Part shown: piece after piece, positions 12,930 to 20,363 of the stretch
How positions within the stretch are numbered: the stretch's first letter is position 1
How the letters are laid out: every line of letters starts with the position of its first letter
From: Saprospiraceae bacterium
GTDB taxonomy: Bacteria > Bacteroidota > Bacteroidia > Chitinophagales > Saprospiraceae
Reading direction: 5' to 3'
Length of the DNA stretch: 48,620 nucleotides
NCBI GenBank assembly: GCA_026983735.1
Contig: JALSTN010000194.1
Span: 1 to 48,620 of the forward strand
Program-made: the position numbers and the translations under genes
Notes under the pieces: generated by a model
Database searches by the model: none
Told to the model about the DNA's origin: nothing
What the model saw: only the letters and a program-made list of their open reading frames with translations

Positions 12930-12983
12930 ACCTTAGCAATCATTGTTTATGACAAATATGTAACCATTTAAAATATTAAAGAT

Positions 12984-12998
12984 ATGAAACGAACATGA
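12984..12998 (+). promoter_or_regulatory. Four-codon upstream ORF (MKRT-stop) duplicating the start of the next gene
   Basis: The 19-mer TTAAAGATATGAAACGAAC occurs at 12976-12994 and again at 13117-13135, where its ATG is the real start of the membrane-protein gene. The upstream copy reads ATG-AAA-CGA-ACA-TGA, so it encodes MKRT and stops. It overlaps the 5' arm of the long hairpin at 12993-13049. It could be a leader peptide for attenuation or a scar of a local duplication. Confidence 0.55.
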
Positions 12999-13049
12999 AT
13001 TTTATTAAACATAAATTTCACACAGAGTTTTGTTTAAAAAAATTCATGT
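12993..13049 (+). promoter_or_regulatory. Long leader hairpin, 18 of 19 positions paired
   Basis: Bases 12993-13011 pair with 13031-13049 with a single internal A/A mismatch; the loop is 19 nt. The 3' arm shares bases 13046-13049 with the 5' arm of the next hairpin (13046-13068), so the two stems compete. Stop of the upstream mini-ORF falls within the 5' arm. Confidence 0.65.
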
Positions 13050-13124
13050 GAGAGCGCAGCGGTTACATAGCTGCAGGAAATTTATAATACATTTATTTTC
13101 AATTTATTAGAAATTTTTAAAGAT
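13046..13124 (+). promoter_or_regulatory. Shared leader element, copy 1
   Basis: This 79-nt sequence begins with ATGTGAGAGCGCAGCGGTTA and ends at the base before the ATG. It aligns without gaps to 13833-13911; the first 24 positions differ at only three. It folds as a hairpin: T13047-A13069 through G13050-C13066, a bulged A, then A13053-T13064, G13054-T13063 and C13055-G13062 around a GCAGCG loop. Confidence 0.7.
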
Positions 13125-13667
13125 ATGAAACGAACGTTACTCGGCTTACTTATTCCGGCAATTATTTTCTTTATCTGGCAATTTTTATCCTGGGCTGCCT
13201 TGGGGGTCCATGAAGATAATCTGCGCTATACCCCCAATCAAATGGAAATTCTAAATACGCTCAAAGGCCAATTAGAAGATGGGACCTATTTTCTACCTAA
13301 AGCTCAACCGGGGATGTCTTATGAGGAAGAGCAGGCCTTTATGAAGGAACACGAGGGAGAAGCCTGGGCCGTTTTATCCTATCACAGCAGTTTTGATAGC
13401 AGCATGGGGATGAATATGATTCGTGGTTTTGCCACTGATCTGGTGATTGGGTTTATTTTGTTTTGGCTGATGGCGCAGATGGCAGGGATGAACACCAAGA
13501 GAGGTGTGATGATCGGTATTGCCATAGGTTTTTTGGGATTTTCTGCGATTAAATACATGAACAGTATTTGGTTTGATCAGAATACGATTCCGGATTTAAT
13601 CGATGCGGTTGTCCCTTGGGCATTATCCGGCGCCTGGCTTGGATGGTGGCTACCCAAGTCCGCTTAA
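13125..13667 (+). CDS. Small integral membrane protein of unknown function
   Basis: This 180-aa protein matches no family I recognise. It has a hydrophobic segment at about residues 5-27, then a roughly 70-residue polar region (31-100) rich in Glu and Asp with MSYEEEQAFMKEHEGEAW. Three further hydrophobic segments follow at about 100-120, 126-143 and 158-177. With an N-in start this gives a periplasmic loop followed by a three-helix hairpin, and it resembles a small accessory or sensor subunit rather than a transporter. It is expressed from a canonical promoter through a long structured leader. The same leader type stands before the downstream symporter gene, which implies co-regulation and a shared physiological cue. 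Confidence 0.75.
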   Translation: MKRTLLGLLIPAIIFFIWQFLSWAALGVHEDNLRYTPNQMEILNTLKGQLEDGTYFLPKAQPGMSYEEEQAFMKEHEGEAWAVLSYHSSFDSSMGMNMIRGFATDLVIGFILFWLMAQMAGMNTKRGVMIGIAIGFLGFSAIKYMNSIWFDQNTIPDLIDAVVPWALSGAWLGWWLPKSA

Positions 13668-13832
13668 GGACGTTGAACTTTAACTCAAGATGGAGTACTA
13701 TTTTTTGAATGCATCCACTTTTTGTGCATGCATTGAGACTTCATTTGCACGGTCTGTGTACAATGAAGCCTAGCAATTGTATTTTTTTTCATACTTTAAC
13801 GGCCTCAAAACAATCAGGTACAGATGTTCGAC
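13668..13832 (+). promoter_or_regulatory. Two hairpins in the symporter leader region
   Basis: AATGCAT-c-CAC (13708-13718) pairs with GTG-c-ATGCATT (13724-13734) around a TTTTT loop. CTTCATTTGCAC (13739-13750) then pairs with GTGTA-c-AATGAAG (13756-13768) around GGTCT with one bulge and one G-T pair. Neither is followed by a T-run. They precede leader copy 2 and make the whole 13.70-13.91 kb stretch structured. The first could also end the upstream transcript. Confidence 0.5.
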
Positions 13833-13911
13833 ATATGAGAACGCAGCGGTTCCATATGCGCAGAAGATTTGTAATACCTTTATTTATGATTTATGATAAA
13901 TTATTAAAGAG
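13833..13911 (+). promoter_or_regulatory. Shared leader element, copy 2
   Basis: This is the counterpart of 13046-13124, with the same length and the same 79-nt distance to the start codon. Its hairpin is stronger: CATATG (13832-13837) pairs with CATATG (13853-13858), there is a bulged A, and GAAC (13839-13842) pairs with GTTC (13849-13852) around GCAGCG. Relative to copy 1, two A-U pairs become G-U pairs, so base pairing is retained. A TACCTTTA at 13875-13882 resembles a -7 box, so an operator/promoter reading is also possible. Confidence 0.7.
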
Positions 13912-15234
13912 ATGAAAAAGTTAGCATTGCATTGGAAGATACTAATAGGCATGGTCCTAGGGGTATTGTTTGGTATCGGGATGAGTCAGTTGTCATGGGG
14001 GCCGGGTTTTGTTACAGAATGGATCAAGCCAATGGGTACGATATTCATTCGGTTGCTTAAGCTTATCGCTATACCTTTAATCATTGCGTCATTGATTAAG
14101 GGGGTTTCCGACCTTCAAGATTTATCCAAATTTTCCAGGATTGGTGGTCGAACGATATTGCTCTATATCTTTACGACGGTGATTGCTATTAGTATTGGGT
14201 TAGTGTTAGTGAACCTGCTCCATCCCGGTTCAAGTGTCGGTGAGTCCGTCGTTCAAAGAATAACAGAAGCGTATGAATCCACTGCGTCCGGCAAAGTAGC
14301 GCACGCGATGGAAGCCAAACAACGGGGAAAACTCCAGTTTTTAGTAGATATGGTACCCTCCAACTTTTTTGAAGCAGCTAGCAGCAATAGAAATATGCTC
14401 CAGGTGATCTTCTTTGCTATTTTCTTTGGCATCGCTCTTCTAATGGTAGAAGAAAAGTATGCGAAGCCTTTAAAATCTTTTTTTGATGGGCTCAATGAGG
14501 TTATCCTTAAAATGGTCGATCTAATCATGCTGATCGCCCCTTATGCGGTATTTGCACTCTTGGCCGGATTGATTACAGATACGCAGGATCCCTCTTTATT
14601 TGTGGCTTTGGGATGGTATGCATTTACTGTGGTTGTAGGATTACTTCTGATGTTGGTCTTTTACCTCACACTGAACTATTTCATAACAGGAACCAATCCC
14701 ATTACTTTCCTTAGAGGGATTGCCCCTGCTCAGCTTCTGGCCTTTTCAACCAGTTCCAGTGCGGCGACGCTCCCCGTAACGATGGAAAGAGTAGAAGAGC
14801 ACCTCGGAGTCGAGGGAGAAGTGGCTTCATTTGTCTGTCCGGTTGGTGCTACGGTCAATATGGATGGAACTAGCCTGTATCAAGCGGTGGCTGCTGTATT
14901 TATCGCTCAGGTCTTGGCTTTTGACCTGAATTTTAGTGACCAATTGACCATTATTGTGACCGCTACAATGGCTTCGATAGGAAGTGCGGCGGTACCCGGA
15001 GCTGGGATGATTATGCTCGTCATCGTATTGGAAGCGATAGGCCTGCCTCAAGAGAAATTAGCTGTGGGATTGGCCTTAATCTTTGCCGTCGACCGTCCAT
15101 TGGATATGTGCCGTACGGTGATTAATATTTCCGGAGATGCGACTGTGGCTATGCTCGTGGCAAAGTCCGTCGGCAAACTTTCCAAACCCCAACCTAAAGA
15201 ATGGGACGACCATTACCCCAAGGACGGGGAATAA
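13912..15234 (+). CDS. Dicarboxylate/amino-acid:cation symporter (DAACS, GltP/DctA-like)
   Basis: This 440-aa inner-membrane protein is the usual length for the family, which imports glutamate/aspartate or C4-dicarboxylates with Na+ or H+. It has about eight membrane helices plus the two re-entrant hairpins. The hallmark serine-rich hairpin STSSSAATLPVTMERVEE is near residue 278, and the NMDGT cation-binding motif is near residue 316. The second hairpin (TATMASIGSAAVPGAGMIML) and the DRPLDMCRTVINISGD helix with the substrate-binding Arg follow. Between helices 3 and 4 there is a polar insert (about 105-145) longer than in GltPh. The gene is preceded by the same leader element as the upstream membrane protein. 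Family assignment is firm; substrate is not. Confidence 0.95.
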   Translation: MKKLALHWKILIGMVLGVLFGIGMSQLSWGPGFVTEWIKPMGTIFIRLLKLIAIPLIIASLIKGVSDLQDLSKFSRIGGRTILLYIFTTVIAISIGLVLVNLLHPGSSVGESVVQRITEAYESTASGKVAHAMEAKQRGKLQFLVDMVPSNFFEAASSNRNMLQVIFFAIFFGIALLMVEEKYAKPLKSFFDGLNEVILKMVDLIMLIAPYAVFALLAGLITDTQDPSLFVALGWYAFTVVVGLLLMLVFYLTLNYFITGTNPITFLRGIAPAQLLAFSTSSSAATLPVTMERVEEHLGVEGEVASFVCPVGATVNMDGTSLYQAVAAVFIAQVLAFDLNFSDQLTIIVTATMASIGSAAVPGAGMIMLVIVLEAIGLPQEKLAVGLALIFAVDRPLDMCRTVINISGDATVAMLVAKSVGKLSKPQPKEWDDHYPKDGE

Positions 15235-15358: not shown

Positions 15359-17854
15359 TTACCTCTTCTCTACCAATTCTATATAATCATCGGCGCTTAA
15401 TACGGTGTCATAGAGCCCAATCTCCTCGCCGGCATGTCTGTTAATGCCAATGTATTCCAAACTCGCATCTTCGTACCTTTTGAACTTATATACCGCATCA
15501 TTCATTAAAGCCCCATTAAATACTCCGAGACTTACAAGCAATTCAAAATCCTTGACTTCAAGTCCGGTTACTTTTTTAAATAGACCCGGTTCGAGCTGAG
15601 TAATTACATCTTTCAAACTTCGTTCACGATAATCTGTCAGGTACATGAATACCGGTATTCTTGTGGCAAATTTGATAAGTTTATCTTGAATTTTCTTTCT
15701 TAAGCTTTTATATTCTCTTTCTTCGTCCGTCAATTCTTTTTTCGCTTTCTTTGAAAGCTTTTCATCATTAGCTTCTTTCTTAGCTTTTTTTACTGCTTCC
15801 GATTTGTTGATAATGGTTTCAATGTCTTGATTTAGATTTCTAAAGCCTTCGATGCTCATCAAAGCGTCCAGAGCCGCATCGTTTTTCATTAGACGAGCTA
15901 GGGTTGCATTATCCACGTTTACGAGCAATGCACTTTCCCACCGCCTTGCCAGTAATGTTGCGGTTGTCCCGCTCATGGCAATATCGAGTACTCCTGCGGC
16001 ATCGATTCTTCTCATCGAACTTCCATCATAAGCGAGTACGGGTAAGAAATGAATAAATTCTGCTACATTTTTTTCAGGGTTCGATTCATTGACATTTAAC
16101 CGACAGGCATAATCTGCGACTTGACTCAGCGCTCGATTGGGGGCAAAATCAAAGACATAGCATTCATTTTTTATGATTTCGGTTGTACCGTCAGGTTTAT
16201 GTATTGTCCAAGGAGATTGCACTCTAAAAGCGGCTTGAAAATAGGTCTCGGGGCTTGACGAATTACGAAGCATAAAAATACCTGTCCAAGGTTTTACCGT
16301 AACTCCGGTGGTCAATTTTCCACAAGAAAGTGTAATTGTTTTTGTTTCTAGAGGATTATCCATTGCTTCATAAACCGGTGGTAAAGCATGCACCCCTATC
16401 CCCGCTTGCGTTCCTGCTGCCACTACAATCTCATAATCATGCCAAAATGTGTTTTGTCGTTGGTGCATTAAGTTTCGCATGGCGTAACAAGAAGCGACGC
16501 TCGGCAAAAACCAAAAGGTATGCGTTAAAATATTCTTCAAACGAGCATCTGAAAAGGGCATGGGGGGCTTTCTAGCTCCCATTTTCAAATTATCCAGCAT
16601 GGTTTCTCTATAACTCCCACGAATTAAGTCTAACCACTTTTGAACATCGCTCTCCAACTTAAATTCAGCACTTTCCCCTGTGCCTTCTGCAGCAAAGAAT
16701 ACATTCAGATCAAACTCATTAAACTCTCCGCCAAGAGCAATTTCTCGTATCGCATCGGGCATTTGATAGGTAAGCATTACCATTCTTGGAAGCGCTGCAT
16801 AAGGATTTTCTCCTTTTGAATCGTCCCACTCTTCTTTGGCTCTTTGCTCATCTGAATAGGTCCAGTTAAATATTTGTTCTTCTATAAATTCACCCGAAGT
16901 AATGGCGCGAAAAGGTGTGCCCGAAAGATACAAAAAGGCATCGGTAGTAATGGGTAAAATATCCTCGTCAAACTCTCTCACATCTCCGGTATCTAGAATT
17001 CTTTCTCTCGCTTCACTTTCAAAGAGGTCTTTGGCATTTTCTCTCCATGCTCCATAGTGGTATTCATCAAAAATCACACAATCCCAATTTATCAAATGTA
17101 CCCATTCATTTTTGGTTTTTATTCCCCCTGTTGATGTGTTTTTGCCGAGAAAATCTTGAAACGAACCAAAACAAACAAAGGGTTTTTCCTTGTCTGCTTC
17201 TTCGTATGACAACCCGCCACGGGAAATAAATTGCCAACCTTCAAAATCTACATGAGTCATTAAATCTTCTTCCCATGCACTTTGAACGGCAGGCTTAAAA
17301 GTAAGTACTAATATCTTTTTCCACCCTTGCTTTTTTGCCAATTGATAAGAGGCAAATGTTTTCCCGAAACGCATTTTTGCATTCCATAAAAATCGTGGGG
17401 TTTTATCTTTGTTTTCCGGTTCTTTTCTAAAGCTCTCAAAATATTGAATCGTTTTATGGACAGCTCTTTCTTGCTCGGGGCGCATCTTGAAAGTCTGAGT
17501 TCTGTCCTCGATGTTTTCTCTTCTTTCTTTAATCGCAATAATAGCCGCTTTTACATCACGAGTATTACAAGTAAACCATTCTCCAACTGTATTTTTAAAT
17601 CCTTTCTTACGTAGATATTTATGTATGTCGTGGTCAGAAAAAGAACTTCCATCGTTACGGATGGCCGATTCAATAAGAACAATCTCGTATCTTGCACGAG
17701 TTGCACCAATCTGCTCGTTAATTCGCTCTTGGGCCGAACGAGTAGTAAAGCCGATTTTCAGTTGACCTTTGCGAGAAGTATCATTTGGCAGGGTATAAGC
17801 GTAAATGGTTGGTTTTGCTTTGGGGCGCTGTGGGAAAAAATCATTTTTACTCAT
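15359..17854 (-). CDS. GIY-YIG (T5orf172-like) nuclease / superfamily-2 helicase fusion, restriction component
   Basis: This 831-aa protein is the last gene of a four-gene operon. The N-terminal T5orf172/GIY-YIG-like nuclease spans about residues 16-100, with IYAY, LKIG, R44 and a catalytic Glu candidate in GEWF (E92). The helicase has a Walker A variant MRFGKT (161-166), a DEYH Walker B (263-266), motif III SGTPFR (311-316) and a motif VI-like QAAFRVQSPW. A Lys/Glu-rich coiled region (about 690-730) and a C-terminal domain that may bind DNA or partners follow. I infer ATP-driven translocation on DNA with cleavage by the N-terminal nuclease, acting with the upstream methylase proteins. It overlaps the preceding gene by 8 bases. 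The helicase is certain; the defence role is inferred from context. Confidence 0.85.
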   Translation of the reverse strand: MSKNDFFPQRPKAKPTIYAYTLPNDTSRKGQLKIGFTTRSAQERINEQIGATRARYEIVLIESAIRNDGSSFSDHDIHKYLRKKGFKNTVGEWFTCNTRDVKAAIIAIKERRENIEDRTQTFKMRPEQERAVHKTIQYFESFRKEPENKDKTPRFLWNAKMRFGKTFASYQLAKKQGWKKILVLTFKPAVQSAWEEDLMTHVDFEGWQFISRGGLSYEEADKEKPFVCFGSFQDFLGKNTSTGGIKTKNEWVHLINWDCVIFDEYHYGAWRENAKDLFESEARERILDTGDVREFDEDILPITTDAFLYLSGTPFRAITSGEFIEEQIFNWTYSDEQRAKEEWDDSKGENPYAALPRMVMLTYQMPDAIREIALGGEFNEFDLNVFFAAEGTGESAEFKLESDVQKWLDLIRGSYRETMLDNLKMGARKPPMPFSDARLKNILTHTFWFLPSVASCYAMRNLMHQRQNTFWHDYEIVVAAGTQAGIGVHALPPVYEAMDNPLETKTITLSCGKLTTGVTVKPWTGIFMLRNSSSPETYFQAAFRVQSPWTIHKPDGTTEIIKNECYVFDFAPNRALSQVADYACRLNVNESNPEKNVAEFIHFLPVLAYDGSSMRRIDAAGVLDIAMSGTTATLLARRWESALLVNVDNATLARLMKNDAALDALMSIEGFRNLNQDIETIINKSEAVKKAKKEANDEKLSKKAKKELTDEEREYKSLRKKIQDKLIKFATRIPVFMYLTDYRERSLKDVITQLEPGLFKKVTGLEVKDFELLVSLGVFNGALMNDAVYKFKRYEDASLEYIGINRHAGEEIGLYDTVLSADDYIELVEKR

Positions 17855-18863
17855 TGTTGCTCTCTATAATTTGGTTTAATGCTTCAATTAACTTTTCTTT
17901 TTCAGGTAGATAAAGTTGGTATTTGCTCACAAAAAGTTGATTGCTAATATTTTGGGTGGCATACTCTACAAGAATATGATCCTTATATGCTCCGAGAACT
18001 ATACCGATTGGCGGATTATCACCCTCTACATTTTCTTCGTTGTTGAAGTAGTTGAGATAGAGATTCATTTGACCAATGTCATTGTGTTCAACTTCTCCTC
18101 TTTTGAGATCTATAAGAACAAAACATTTAAGAATACGGTGATAAAAAACCAAATCGACAAAGAAGTGGCGACTGCCTATTAAAATTTTATATTGTCTGCC
18201 AATAAATGCGAAGCCCATGCCAAGCTCTAATAAAAACTTTTCAAGATTAGAGATTAGTTTTTCTTCAAGTTCACCCTCTAAATATCTATAATCAACAGGA
18301 ATATCTAAAAATTCAAAGATATACGGCTCTTTTATTATATCCTCTGCTTGGGTTATTTCTTGCCCTTTATTGGATAAGTCCAAAACACCTTGTTTATCTT
18401 TGCTGAGTGCCAAGCGATGAAAAAGCATACTTTTCATCTGTCTTTTTAGCTCTCTGACACTCCAATTCTCCTTTTCACACTGTTTAAGATAGAAGTTTAA
18501 CTCCAACTCATCATCACATTTTATAAGCTCAACATAATGGCTCCAACTCAATTGTTCAGACAGTGTCTGGATTTTTGGAAATTTTATATAAAACAATCGT
18601 ATTTGAAATAGATTGGAACGACTAAACCCTTTGCCAAATTCAAGTGAGAGGTCTTTTGATAATTTTGTTAGAAGTTCCTTGCCATATTTGGCTTTTACCT
18701 CTCCTTGTTGTTCAAACTCTACAATGTGATTACCAATATGCCAATAGGTTTGCAATAAGATGGTATTAACCGACTTAAATGCCCGCTTACGACCTTGCAC
18801 AAGAAGCTTGCTAATCTCTTGTTTAAGATTTTGGTAACTGTTTGGTGTTGGTAAGTTATTCAT
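17847..18863 (-). CDS. DUF1016/YhcG-type PD-(D/E)XK nuclease
   Basis: This 338-aa protein has the two-part architecture of the YhcG family. The N-terminal helical domain includes the motif TYWHIGNHIVEFEQQG (about 39-54), YGKELLTKLSKDLS and the SRSNLFQIRLFY segment, followed by LSWSHYVELIK. The C-terminal nuclease has D237 in HFFVDLVFYHR and the D252-x-K254 pair in VLIDLKRG, where most relatives have E-x-K, then GQMNLYLNYF. The family is found as stand-alone genes and beside restriction-modification genes; a DNA-cleaving or recombination role is suspected. Here it sits in the middle of the operon, 6 bases after the methylase gene and overlapping the helicase gene. It may be a functional subunit or a passenger. 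Confidence 0.88.
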   Translation of the reverse strand: MNNLPTPNSYQNLKQEISKLLVQGRKRAFKSVNTILLQTYWHIGNHIVEFEQQGEVKAKYGKELLTKLSKDLSLEFGKGFSRSNLFQIRLFYIKFPKIQTLSEQLSWSHYVELIKCDDELELNFYLKQCEKENWSVRELKRQMKSMLFHRLALSKDKQGVLDLSNKGQEITQAEDIIKEPYIFEFLDIPVDYRYLEGELEEKLISNLEKFLLELGMGFAFIGRQYKILIGSRHFFVDLVFYHRILKCFVLIDLKRGEVEHNDIGQMNLYLNYFNNEENVEGDNPPIGIVLGAYKDHILVEYATQNISNQLFVSKYQLYLPEKEKLIEALNQIIESNNE

Positions 18864-18869
18864 AGTTGT

Positions 18870-20363
18870 CTATTCCATCGGTCGTATCATGGATTCTATA
18901 AAATCTATCTCCTCCTGCGCAAGTCCATATTTTTTGTAGAGTTTTTCGTCTGTCCATTTTTCCTGCATATTCTGAACAGGGACAAAAGAATAAGAATCTT
19001 TGCTTATGTGATGCGAATACATAAATTGTGATACAAGAAACCTAAAAAAACGTGTCTTCATATATTTGACAAGATTTTCTGCCTCATTTCTGGAGTCGTA
19101 AACTCCAGTGACAAGATAAGTCTCAGTGCAAATGGTCCCTGGCGGTAAAATATCAATTTTAGAAAAAACGCGCCGTCTTCCGTCTTTTCCGGGAGAACCC
19201 GCATGATCATAACCTACATAAGATGTGATTACTTTCCACTTATCAATCATCTCAACACCTACCGTTATTTCATCTCGCATAAAAGGTCCTTCTCCTTTTT
19301 GCCAACGTAATATTATGTGACCGTGTTTTAGAGGTCGTACATTTGTTGCTAATCCAAATGGTTTTCTGCTTGATACCTGTTCACTCATTCCTTTCTCTTT
19401 TATTTGCATAACTTTTCTGATTATTGGTACTGCAAAGCTATGCCGAATAAAGGTGTCAAATTCGTTAAGAGACCTTACTACCACATTTATTTCACCATTT
19501 CTAATGTTGGCTACTTGACATTCACCATGAAAATCCCTGTTCCACAAAAAGTAACAAACTCCACCGGCTATATCAACACCAGGAAAAACCTCAGTTGCAT
19601 TTTCAAAGTCGATGATTTTCTTAATCCGATCATCATTCAACATTTCTTTGCGAAACTCATTCAGACCCTTCCCGCCTCCAAACCATCGGGACGGTATGAT
19701 CATAATCAAATATCTTGGGTTCAGTTTCTTTGCTTGTTCTACAAATTTATGATAAATAGGTCCGGCACTTCTTCCATGTCCCCCATCACTCAACTGATAA
19801 GGTGGATTTCCAATAATTACATCAAATTTCATATTAAATATTTTCTCCGGTTTATTCGTATGTATAAACTGATAAGCGTAAGTTTCCAAACTATCGGCTC
19901 TATCGTACACCTCTTGGCTTGCTCCGCAAAAGCTACACTTTCCTCTGTGCCAAGTGTGCTGTATATTACTAAAAACAATATTGCCTTGTGTGTCATTAAA
20001 TTCCGTGCAAAACGAGTATTTCCCATTGGCGGTTTTGCTGCCGTAAACCGTTCTGCGAGAAAGCAACGAAGTAAGTTCGGTAATGGCAATACCAAATAGT
20101 TGTTTGGTGAAAATATGGTTGGCTCGTTTTTGTTGGTCCGGTATTTCTTTTTCCAAACCTTTCATTAAGCGTTTGGCTATTTCTCGTAAAAAAACGCCCG
20201 ATTTACTTACCGGGTCTAGGAAGGTGGCTGTTTTGCTTTCAAACAACTCTTGTGGTAAACTATCCAAAATGTCATTGACCAATTTTGGTGGTGTAAATAC
20301 TTCGTCATTACTCAGGTTGGCAATGGCATCCAGTACATCGGGATTGTAATTTACATTAATCAT
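18870..20363 (-). CDS. Eco57I-like N6-adenine methylase, NPPY-containing subunit
   Basis: This 497-aa protein has a class I methyltransferase core with the catalytic motif IV NPPY at residues 186-189 ([19 protein letters not shown]). It has the [11 protein letters not shown] segment at 23-33 and, where the SAM-binding motif I is expected, [11 protein letters not shown] (48-57) rather than the canonical DPACGSGxF. A CSFC pair at about 143-146 after WHRGK suggests a small zinc element. The C-terminal half (about 330-497) resembles a target-recognition domain. It overlaps the preceding methylase-like gene by 8 bases. Adenine methylation is inferred from NPPY. Because motif I is divergent, SAM binding may depend on this family's own variant or on the partner protein. 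Confidence 0.88.

Follow-up and report, generated by a model that had tools for sequence, protein, structure and literature searches.

Two adjacent, unrelated genes of a Saprospiraceae bacterium share a 5' leader, and this sharing is explained by transposition and not by a common regulator. On the evidence of the sequences, the leaders are rather probably copies of a short Bacteroidota mobile element that carries no transposase, inserts 3' of ATGAA by a single-strand-type mechanism and is mobilised by an enzyme supplied in trans. Directly observed were a high copy number, tandem arrays, loci in relatives that lack the element, an anatomy that recurs in distant Bacteroidota, an excess of copies at start codons, and covariation in two hairpins and one further helix. 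The window is the whole stretch of 48,620 nucleotides that was analysed, and its source genome (3.3 Mb) is designated G000.

According to the original prediction, a small membrane protein gene and a symporter gene are preceded by the same 79-nt leader with a conserved hairpin. The shared leader is real: positions 13046-13124 and 13833-13911 align without gaps and are identical at 62 of 79 bases, compared with 41/79 for the best of 5000 dinucleotide shuffles. The expected identity of 21/24 was found for the first part, but the last part gave 43/57 and not about 46/57. Both leader copies run up to the base directly before the ATG of the downstream gene, as predicted, and the encoded proteins (a 180-aa membrane protein and an SDF/DAACS symporter, PF00375) are indeed unrelated, which rules out gene duplication as the source of the shared leader. 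The pattern of the conserved core described below matched twice in the window and never in 100 shuffles. The 79-nt segment is, however, part of a longer unit, and the element is larger than first described, copy 1 extending over 12983-13130.

Copy 1 (12983..13130, plus strand) is a full element in its short form of 148 bp, matched by covariance model R1 at 12984-13130 (125.8 bits), with the target TATGAA at its left end and an element-borne TATGAA at its right end. The left ATG, presumably the original start codon and now standing before element sequence, could open a four-codon ORF (MKRT plus stop; 12984..12998, plus strand). It is followed on the same strand by hairpin I (12993..13049), which has a covarying 20-bp stem in the family, and by the conserved core GAGAGCGCAGCGGTTACAT (13050..13068). 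The 5' strand of the core/right-end helix (13066..13072, plus strand) has its 3' strand at 13121-13127, over the right-end start codon; between the two lies hairpin II in an A+T-rich version (13076..13118, plus strand), identified by folding and covariation. In this copy the GTTACAT of the core (13062-13068) is complementary to the left-end ATGAAAC (12984-12990) except for one base, and the core/right-end helix is mismatched at its middle variable pair. The 180-aa membrane protein ORF (13125..13667, plus strand; sub-threshold match to DUF1761) starts on the right-end ATG. Its first 11 bases (13125-13135) are those with which the element begins (ATGAAACGAAC) and may be what is left of a tandem unit since lost.

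Copy 2 (about 13805..13917, plus strand) is old and decayed, and was matched by R1 with 42.5 bits (E 6.6e-7). Its 5' hairpin (hairpin I) is mostly gone and its core/right-end helix mostly unpaired; 13833-13911 is the portion noticed in the original prediction. The DAACS symporter gene (SDF family; 13912..15234, plus strand; PF00375, E 1.9e-125) starts on the right-end ATG of this copy. On the minus strand, the window also holds a three-gene defence-like island (15359-20363), comprising a helicase/REase that resembles part of a type IIG enzyme, a PDC-S02/PD-DExK nuclease and a type II/IIG methyltransferase.

A search of G000 with copy 1 detected at least 51 strong matches, copy 1 itself among them, with identities of 88-100% (40 of 185 candidates scored). 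The left-end 26-mer, with up to three mismatches, was present at 162 sites, and the reversed pattern used as a control at none. The element is not specific to the two genes or to transporters, and the sharing is that of a transposed repeat. The repeats start with TATGAAACGAACATG and end with TTTAAAGATATGAAA, and the short form measures 146-149 bp; ATGAA is not kept exactly at some left ends. Of the 53 G000 elements whose left end was recognised, 45 were of the short form (mean pairwise identity 0.927) and six of a long form, which measures about 313 bp because the hairpin I loop holds about 166 additional bases. The loop insert of the long-form copies (L020, L026, L027, L030, L035 and, on the minus strand, L010) is strongly foldable, and no Rfam family scored above its gathering score at L020, L026, L027 or L035. 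Of 40 arrays, 28 consisted of one unit, 11 of two and one of three, arranged head to tail, and tandem neighbours usually have one TATGAAA in common. The base before the target ATGAA was T in 37 of 41 cases in G000; outside G000, a choice of this base by the covarying bases of the core was not supported, with 17/71 matches against 17.9 expected, which counts against the mobile-element explanation. Stronger constraint on the start-codon copies of G000 was also rejected; divergence was nominally 3.7% for these (n = 14) and 4.9% for the others (n = 19).

The element also recurs outside the locus, as the original prediction required, with at least 13 other Bacteroidota genomes carrying it. In a collection with one genome per species, the core pattern matched 25 stretches, and the titles of 24 name Bacteroidota groups (Saprospiraceae, Lewinella, Chitinophagales, Crocinitomicaceae, Flavobacteriales, Bacteroidales, Prolixibacteraceae and Bacteroidetes); the remaining match, in Planctomycetota, had no element ends and is probably due to chance. 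Thirteen of the genomes behind these matches were searched again, and each held between 1 and 7 exact cores; the matched stretches also come from other genomes. Left-end searches of nine genomes gave 4 to 26 sites in eight, where the reversed pattern gave 0 to 3, and none in G258. A model search matched 10 of 396 genomes of the order, including the source genome, some of them with weak, variant copies only. A related variant with the core GAGTTCCATCTGG and the end AAATAGATGAA was seen at L221 and L228 in the Prolixibacteraceae JC049 genome (G100, which has two core copies and also contains L106). The element of L106 matched none of 72,556 plasmids and 50,697 phages, and the exact core pattern was absent from viral contigs, which argues against a phage or plasmid origin. 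A literature search covering open-licence papers, with most subscription journals outside its scope, returned no title or abstract describing the element.

The order of parts in the family is ATGAA/ACGANC, hairpin I, the conserved core, hairpin II and AAACNNATGAA/, where slashes mark the boundaries, and the full consensus reads ATGAAACGANCATGATATTTATTAATCAT-loop-ATGATTAATAAATATCATGN-GAGAGCGNAGCGGTTNCATNNGTGCAG-hairpin II-TTTTAAACNNATGAAA (alignment A2, 24 rows). The length is about 105-150 nt, with some longer members. In subfamilies of about 106 bp the right half is shorter, and the left end, hairpin I, GTTCCATCTG and the CAGATGAAA end are kept in most examples; as read from the sequences, the 106-bp type is apparently without hairpin II. 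Copies L267, L273, L274, L275, L284 and L286 contain G+C-rich palindromes, which suggests that small repeats are nested within them.

In A2, the 20 pairs of hairpin I, the 11 of hairpin II and the seven of the core/right-end helix, which include the start codon, were paired in 89.8% of cells compared with 80.1% after shuffling, and double changes were found in 79 cells compared with 25.9. When the partners were shifted by 1-3 columns, pairing fell to 37-49%. The element is thus structured, as originally proposed, but the particular hairpin named as conserved is not: it came out as the best fold for copy 2 and not for copy 1, and among 24 relatives it showed no covariation, with 77.3% of cells paired versus 76.2% after shuffling. 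Stem cells with G-T (22) and with A-C (24) were about equally frequent, or 22 and 12 without two poor pairs, and do not clearly point to a single functional strand. An upstream mini-ORF as a selected feature was rejected, since three of 24 rows have no stop and some copies carry CACGA in place of CATGA with compensation in the stem; the hairpin I stem looks better kept than the mini-ORF stop. The claim that no known riboswitch is involved was supported, and a known RNA was likewise rejected, as no Rfam 15 family exceeded its gathering score in the window or at nine loci (the four long-form loci and five others).

The CATNNG of the core pairs with CNNATG at the right end, over the start codon, and this helix covaries. 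Because A2 rows were selected on the core, the invariance of the core is partly by construction, with the NN of the helix left free. At the first variable pair, both sides had changed in 14 of 24 A2 rows, and outside G000 54 of 75 elements matched, against 20.6 by permutation (0 of 2000 permutations reached 54). The second variable pair gave 55/75 versus 52.6 expected, which was not significant, and the third 71/75 versus 69.1 (p 0.02), which was weakly so. Within G000 (n = 52) the third pair matched in 47 elements against 40.6 expected (p 0.001), whereas the second, middle pair matched in 4 and was unpaired in 48; this standing mismatch, although the copies have multiplied, counts against the mobile-element explanation. 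The test set comprised 127 elements, seven of 134 having no recognisable core. At the other end, ATGAAAC is complementary to the GTTNCAT of the core apart from N, and covariation is uninformative here because the pairs hardly vary: five of six are invariant and the sixth varies by one unpaired row. The N was never T in the 24 A2 rows or in the 127 elements, the search for the latter having favoured A, C or G. Pairing of the core with the left ATG and with the right ATG is mutually exclusive.

In the sample found by the core pattern, 26 of 27 elements had an ORF beginning at the final ATG, the miss being L104 (9 aa); the ORFs of L099 and L100 extend beyond the sequence examined, and L108 was left out as identical to L106 over 80 nt. 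In a Pfam scan of 17 target proteins, two of them from the window, the L34, Usp, ASADH, FAH hydrolase and SDR domains began at the first or second residue of the protein behind the element. Other genes behind the element encode MTHFR, DcuC, CcmE, an MBL-fold protein and a TonB-type outer membrane protein, and the protein at L089 belonged to no family. In five genomes (G101, G103, G108, G109 and G120), 44 of 52 two-ended elements were followed directly by an ORF that had at least 60 aa or continued past the end of the stretch, and one of the eight misses was rpmH, with 53 codons. This set mixes left-end, core and model matches without hand curation, and at least one hit and at least one miss look spurious; 41 loose left-motif matches without a recognised right end in the five genomes, and 14 in G411, were left out.

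In G411, six of 20 elements lay on gene starts and 14 did not lead into an ORF. For G000 the flanks were joined before placement because stops in the element break any ORF. Of 37 arrays, 14 then lay on a start, 22 were intergenic and one (L045) interrupted an antisense ORF; the last was called as a fifteenth start, with a 75-aa ORF behind the element, but lies inside a 455-aa antisense ORF and was counted as a gene interruption. Three further arrays had flanks too short for placement. As a baseline, 56 of 407 start-plus-intergenic ATGAA sites in G000 were starts according to a simple ORF caller (13.8%). Against this value, which was measured in G000 only and also applied to the other genomes, enrichment was significant for the five genomes (44/52, p = 3e-30), for G000 without L045 (14/36, p = 1.6e-4) and for G411 (6/20, p = 0.047). 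The element is therefore enriched at start sites, very strongly in the five genomes and less so in G000 and G411. The disappearance of older copies from other sites may add to the start-codon share. Copy age alone is insufficient as a cause, because the copies in G411 (mean identity 0.747) are as diverse as those of G108 (0.736) and G109 (0.743), yet only 6/20 lie on starts.

Relatives without the element provided a view of its target sites. In G001, of the same genus as G000, there was no element match at E 1e-5 (8 of 24 candidates scored) and no core pattern, and two model matches had a different core. In 41 loci (0.67 Mb) taken from G001, both flanks were matched at L038, L042 and L044, and all three sites were without the element. 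The L038 site has kept the gene start, with the same ATGAAATATAAATC; the L042 and L044 sites show no clear ATGAA, which counts against the mobile-element explanation. The DAACS leader in G001 is also without the element. The rpmH gene was found in 39 of 40 genomes, and a significant copy in one of the 30 rpmH loci scanned (G038). In G433, of the same genus as G038, the ORF lies behind a leader without the element, and both genomes have a TACCTTTG-type region upstream, which we take to be the promoter. In G038 the element lies between this region and the ORF, its left ATGAA joining the native leader and its right ATGAA the native second codon. The gene start behind the element is thus kept at rpmH as at L038, and the predicted leader position was supported at one sister locus at least.

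The placement at rpmH, together with the covarying start-codon helix and the share of copies on gene starts in the five genomes, would also suit a cis-regulatory RNA leader, whose core would cover either the upstream AUG (AUGAAAC/GUUNCAU) or the AUG of the gene (CAUNNG/CNNAUG), so that translation of a small upstream ORF controls the gene and copies are kept for regulation. Two Flavobacteriales-type genomes, moreover, have the element before the same MBL-fold gene (L086, L102). We consider this explanation unlikely: the target genes have no functional theme, the pairing of left AUG and core hardly varies, 22 of 37 G000 arrays and 14 of 20 G411 copies have no ORF behind them, and copies are as rare at rpmH as noted above. 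The expectation that copies would precede related transporter genes failed as well, since 0 of 19 DAACS loci fetched by homology (L065-L083) carry the element, which rules out DAACS-linked regulation; of the DAACS genes covered, only those of the window and of L208 (G411), which was fetched for its element, have a copy. A secondary cis-regulatory effect of the installed leader is possible.

Returning to the mobile element, movement as folded single-stranded DNA of the IS200/IS605 type is suggested by a hairpin near each end (hairpins I and II, both covarying), a short sequence that is common to the left target and the right end, the lack of further target duplication, and an internal segment that base-pairs with the ends. 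At rpmH and L038 the insertion lies 3' of a fixed 4-5 nt target with no further duplication. The mobilising enzyme would be supplied in trans, as for IS200/IS605-type elements. Insertion into a start codon, ATGAA/N, would let the right-end ATGAA rebuild it; because the element ends in ATGAA, the gene would keep its translation start and gain a structured leader of about 140 nt, and the tandem arrays would have the same origin. No guide was found at the 5' foot of each hairpin that pairs with a cleavage site; there is one guide-like segment, between the hairpins.

Y1_Tnp searches covered G000 and ten carrier genomes, nine of the ten with matches, and about 1.5 kb of flank per locus, some matches being below the cut-off. 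None of the 33 loci had a significant copy linked to the transposase (best E 0.17), one bare left-end motif was present at L250, and no parent IS605 with ends matching the element was found among these loci. The sole Y1_Tnp over the cut-off in G000 is RAYT-like and lies amid its own REP array, at L048 (G000:C313:1-2117), where the GCTCCGTAGGAGC-type palindromes are unrelated to the element.

The direct ATGAA at both ends, the head-to-tail arrays and the complementary ATGNAAC/GTTNCAT around hairpin I could also stem from site-specific recombination, in which a tyrosine recombinase would use DNA folded in the manner of attC, with crossover in ATGAA and the copies being gene-less, integron-like cassettes. 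Tyrosine recombinases below the integron cut-off were present in 8/8 carrier genomes, but also in 13/14 controls, and an integron integrase above the cut-off in 0/8. The six recombinase loci that were fetched are all without the element. The attC box layout was not seen in the element, where the paired boxes lie 2 nt and 12 nt from the stem, and we regard this explanation as improbable. A very small intron-like RNA that inserts into mRNA at AUGAA, and is maybe removed from it, is scarcely credible: the single internal segment complementary to both boundaries and the sense position in leaders would fit, but no Rfam match was obtained in the scans described above and intergenic G000 copies showed no orientation bias. 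Of these, 6 were parallel to both flanking genes, 7 antiparallel, 4 between divergent and 3 between convergent genes, and the similar numbers of parallel and antiparallel copies give no sign that insertion needs transcription or entry at the RNA level.

As a tentative proposal, the mobile family may aim at start codons by means of its internal anti-start-codon copy (GTTNCATNNG), with insertion tolerated even in an L34 ribosomal-protein gene by rebuilding of ATGAA, and every insertion may bring with it a preformed translational switch, in which the same segment covers the old or the new AUG. If the mobile-element explanation is right, the element would rewrite the 5' leaders and start codons of many Bacteroidota genes, including an L34 gene, would affect start-site annotation and searches for conserved leaders in Bacteroidota, and would offer a natural system of self-complementary ends associated with ATGAA.

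Several known systems resemble the element in part. HEARO/IscB elements insert at ATGA/GTGA and have non-autonomous copies, and are similar in target and in this respect; there was no HEARO match in the Rfam scans of the window and nine loci. REP/REPIN sequences with RAYT are likewise high-copy palindromic units in intergenic DNA (PMC8266576). In contrast to these, the consensus of the element contains no GTAG-hairpin unit, no GTAG-type tetranucleotide with hairpin was found linked to a RAYT gene, and the RAYT-like gene of G000 has an unrelated REP array of its own. ISDra2 insertion follows a fixed pentanucleotide (PMC2806898), and IS200/IS605 elements select their cleavage sites through base pairing with guides that lie 5' of the palindromes (PMC8266576). 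The element shares insertion 3' of a pentanucleotide and subterminal structure with these systems, and where they use an internal guide to pick cleavage sites it has a guide-like segment between its two hairpins; it differs in the absence of TnpA, the target ATGAA and a strongly conserved core of about 19 nt. PATEs, the IS605-related palindrome-associated transposable elements of Haloquadratum (PMC3119063), are also short and many-copied, with near-terminal palindromes, no transposase, no terminal inverted repeats and no target duplication, and likewise have other small repeats inserted in them. Unlike PATEs, the present element belongs to Bacteroidota, often lies on start codons, and carries an internal segment complementary to both of its ends.
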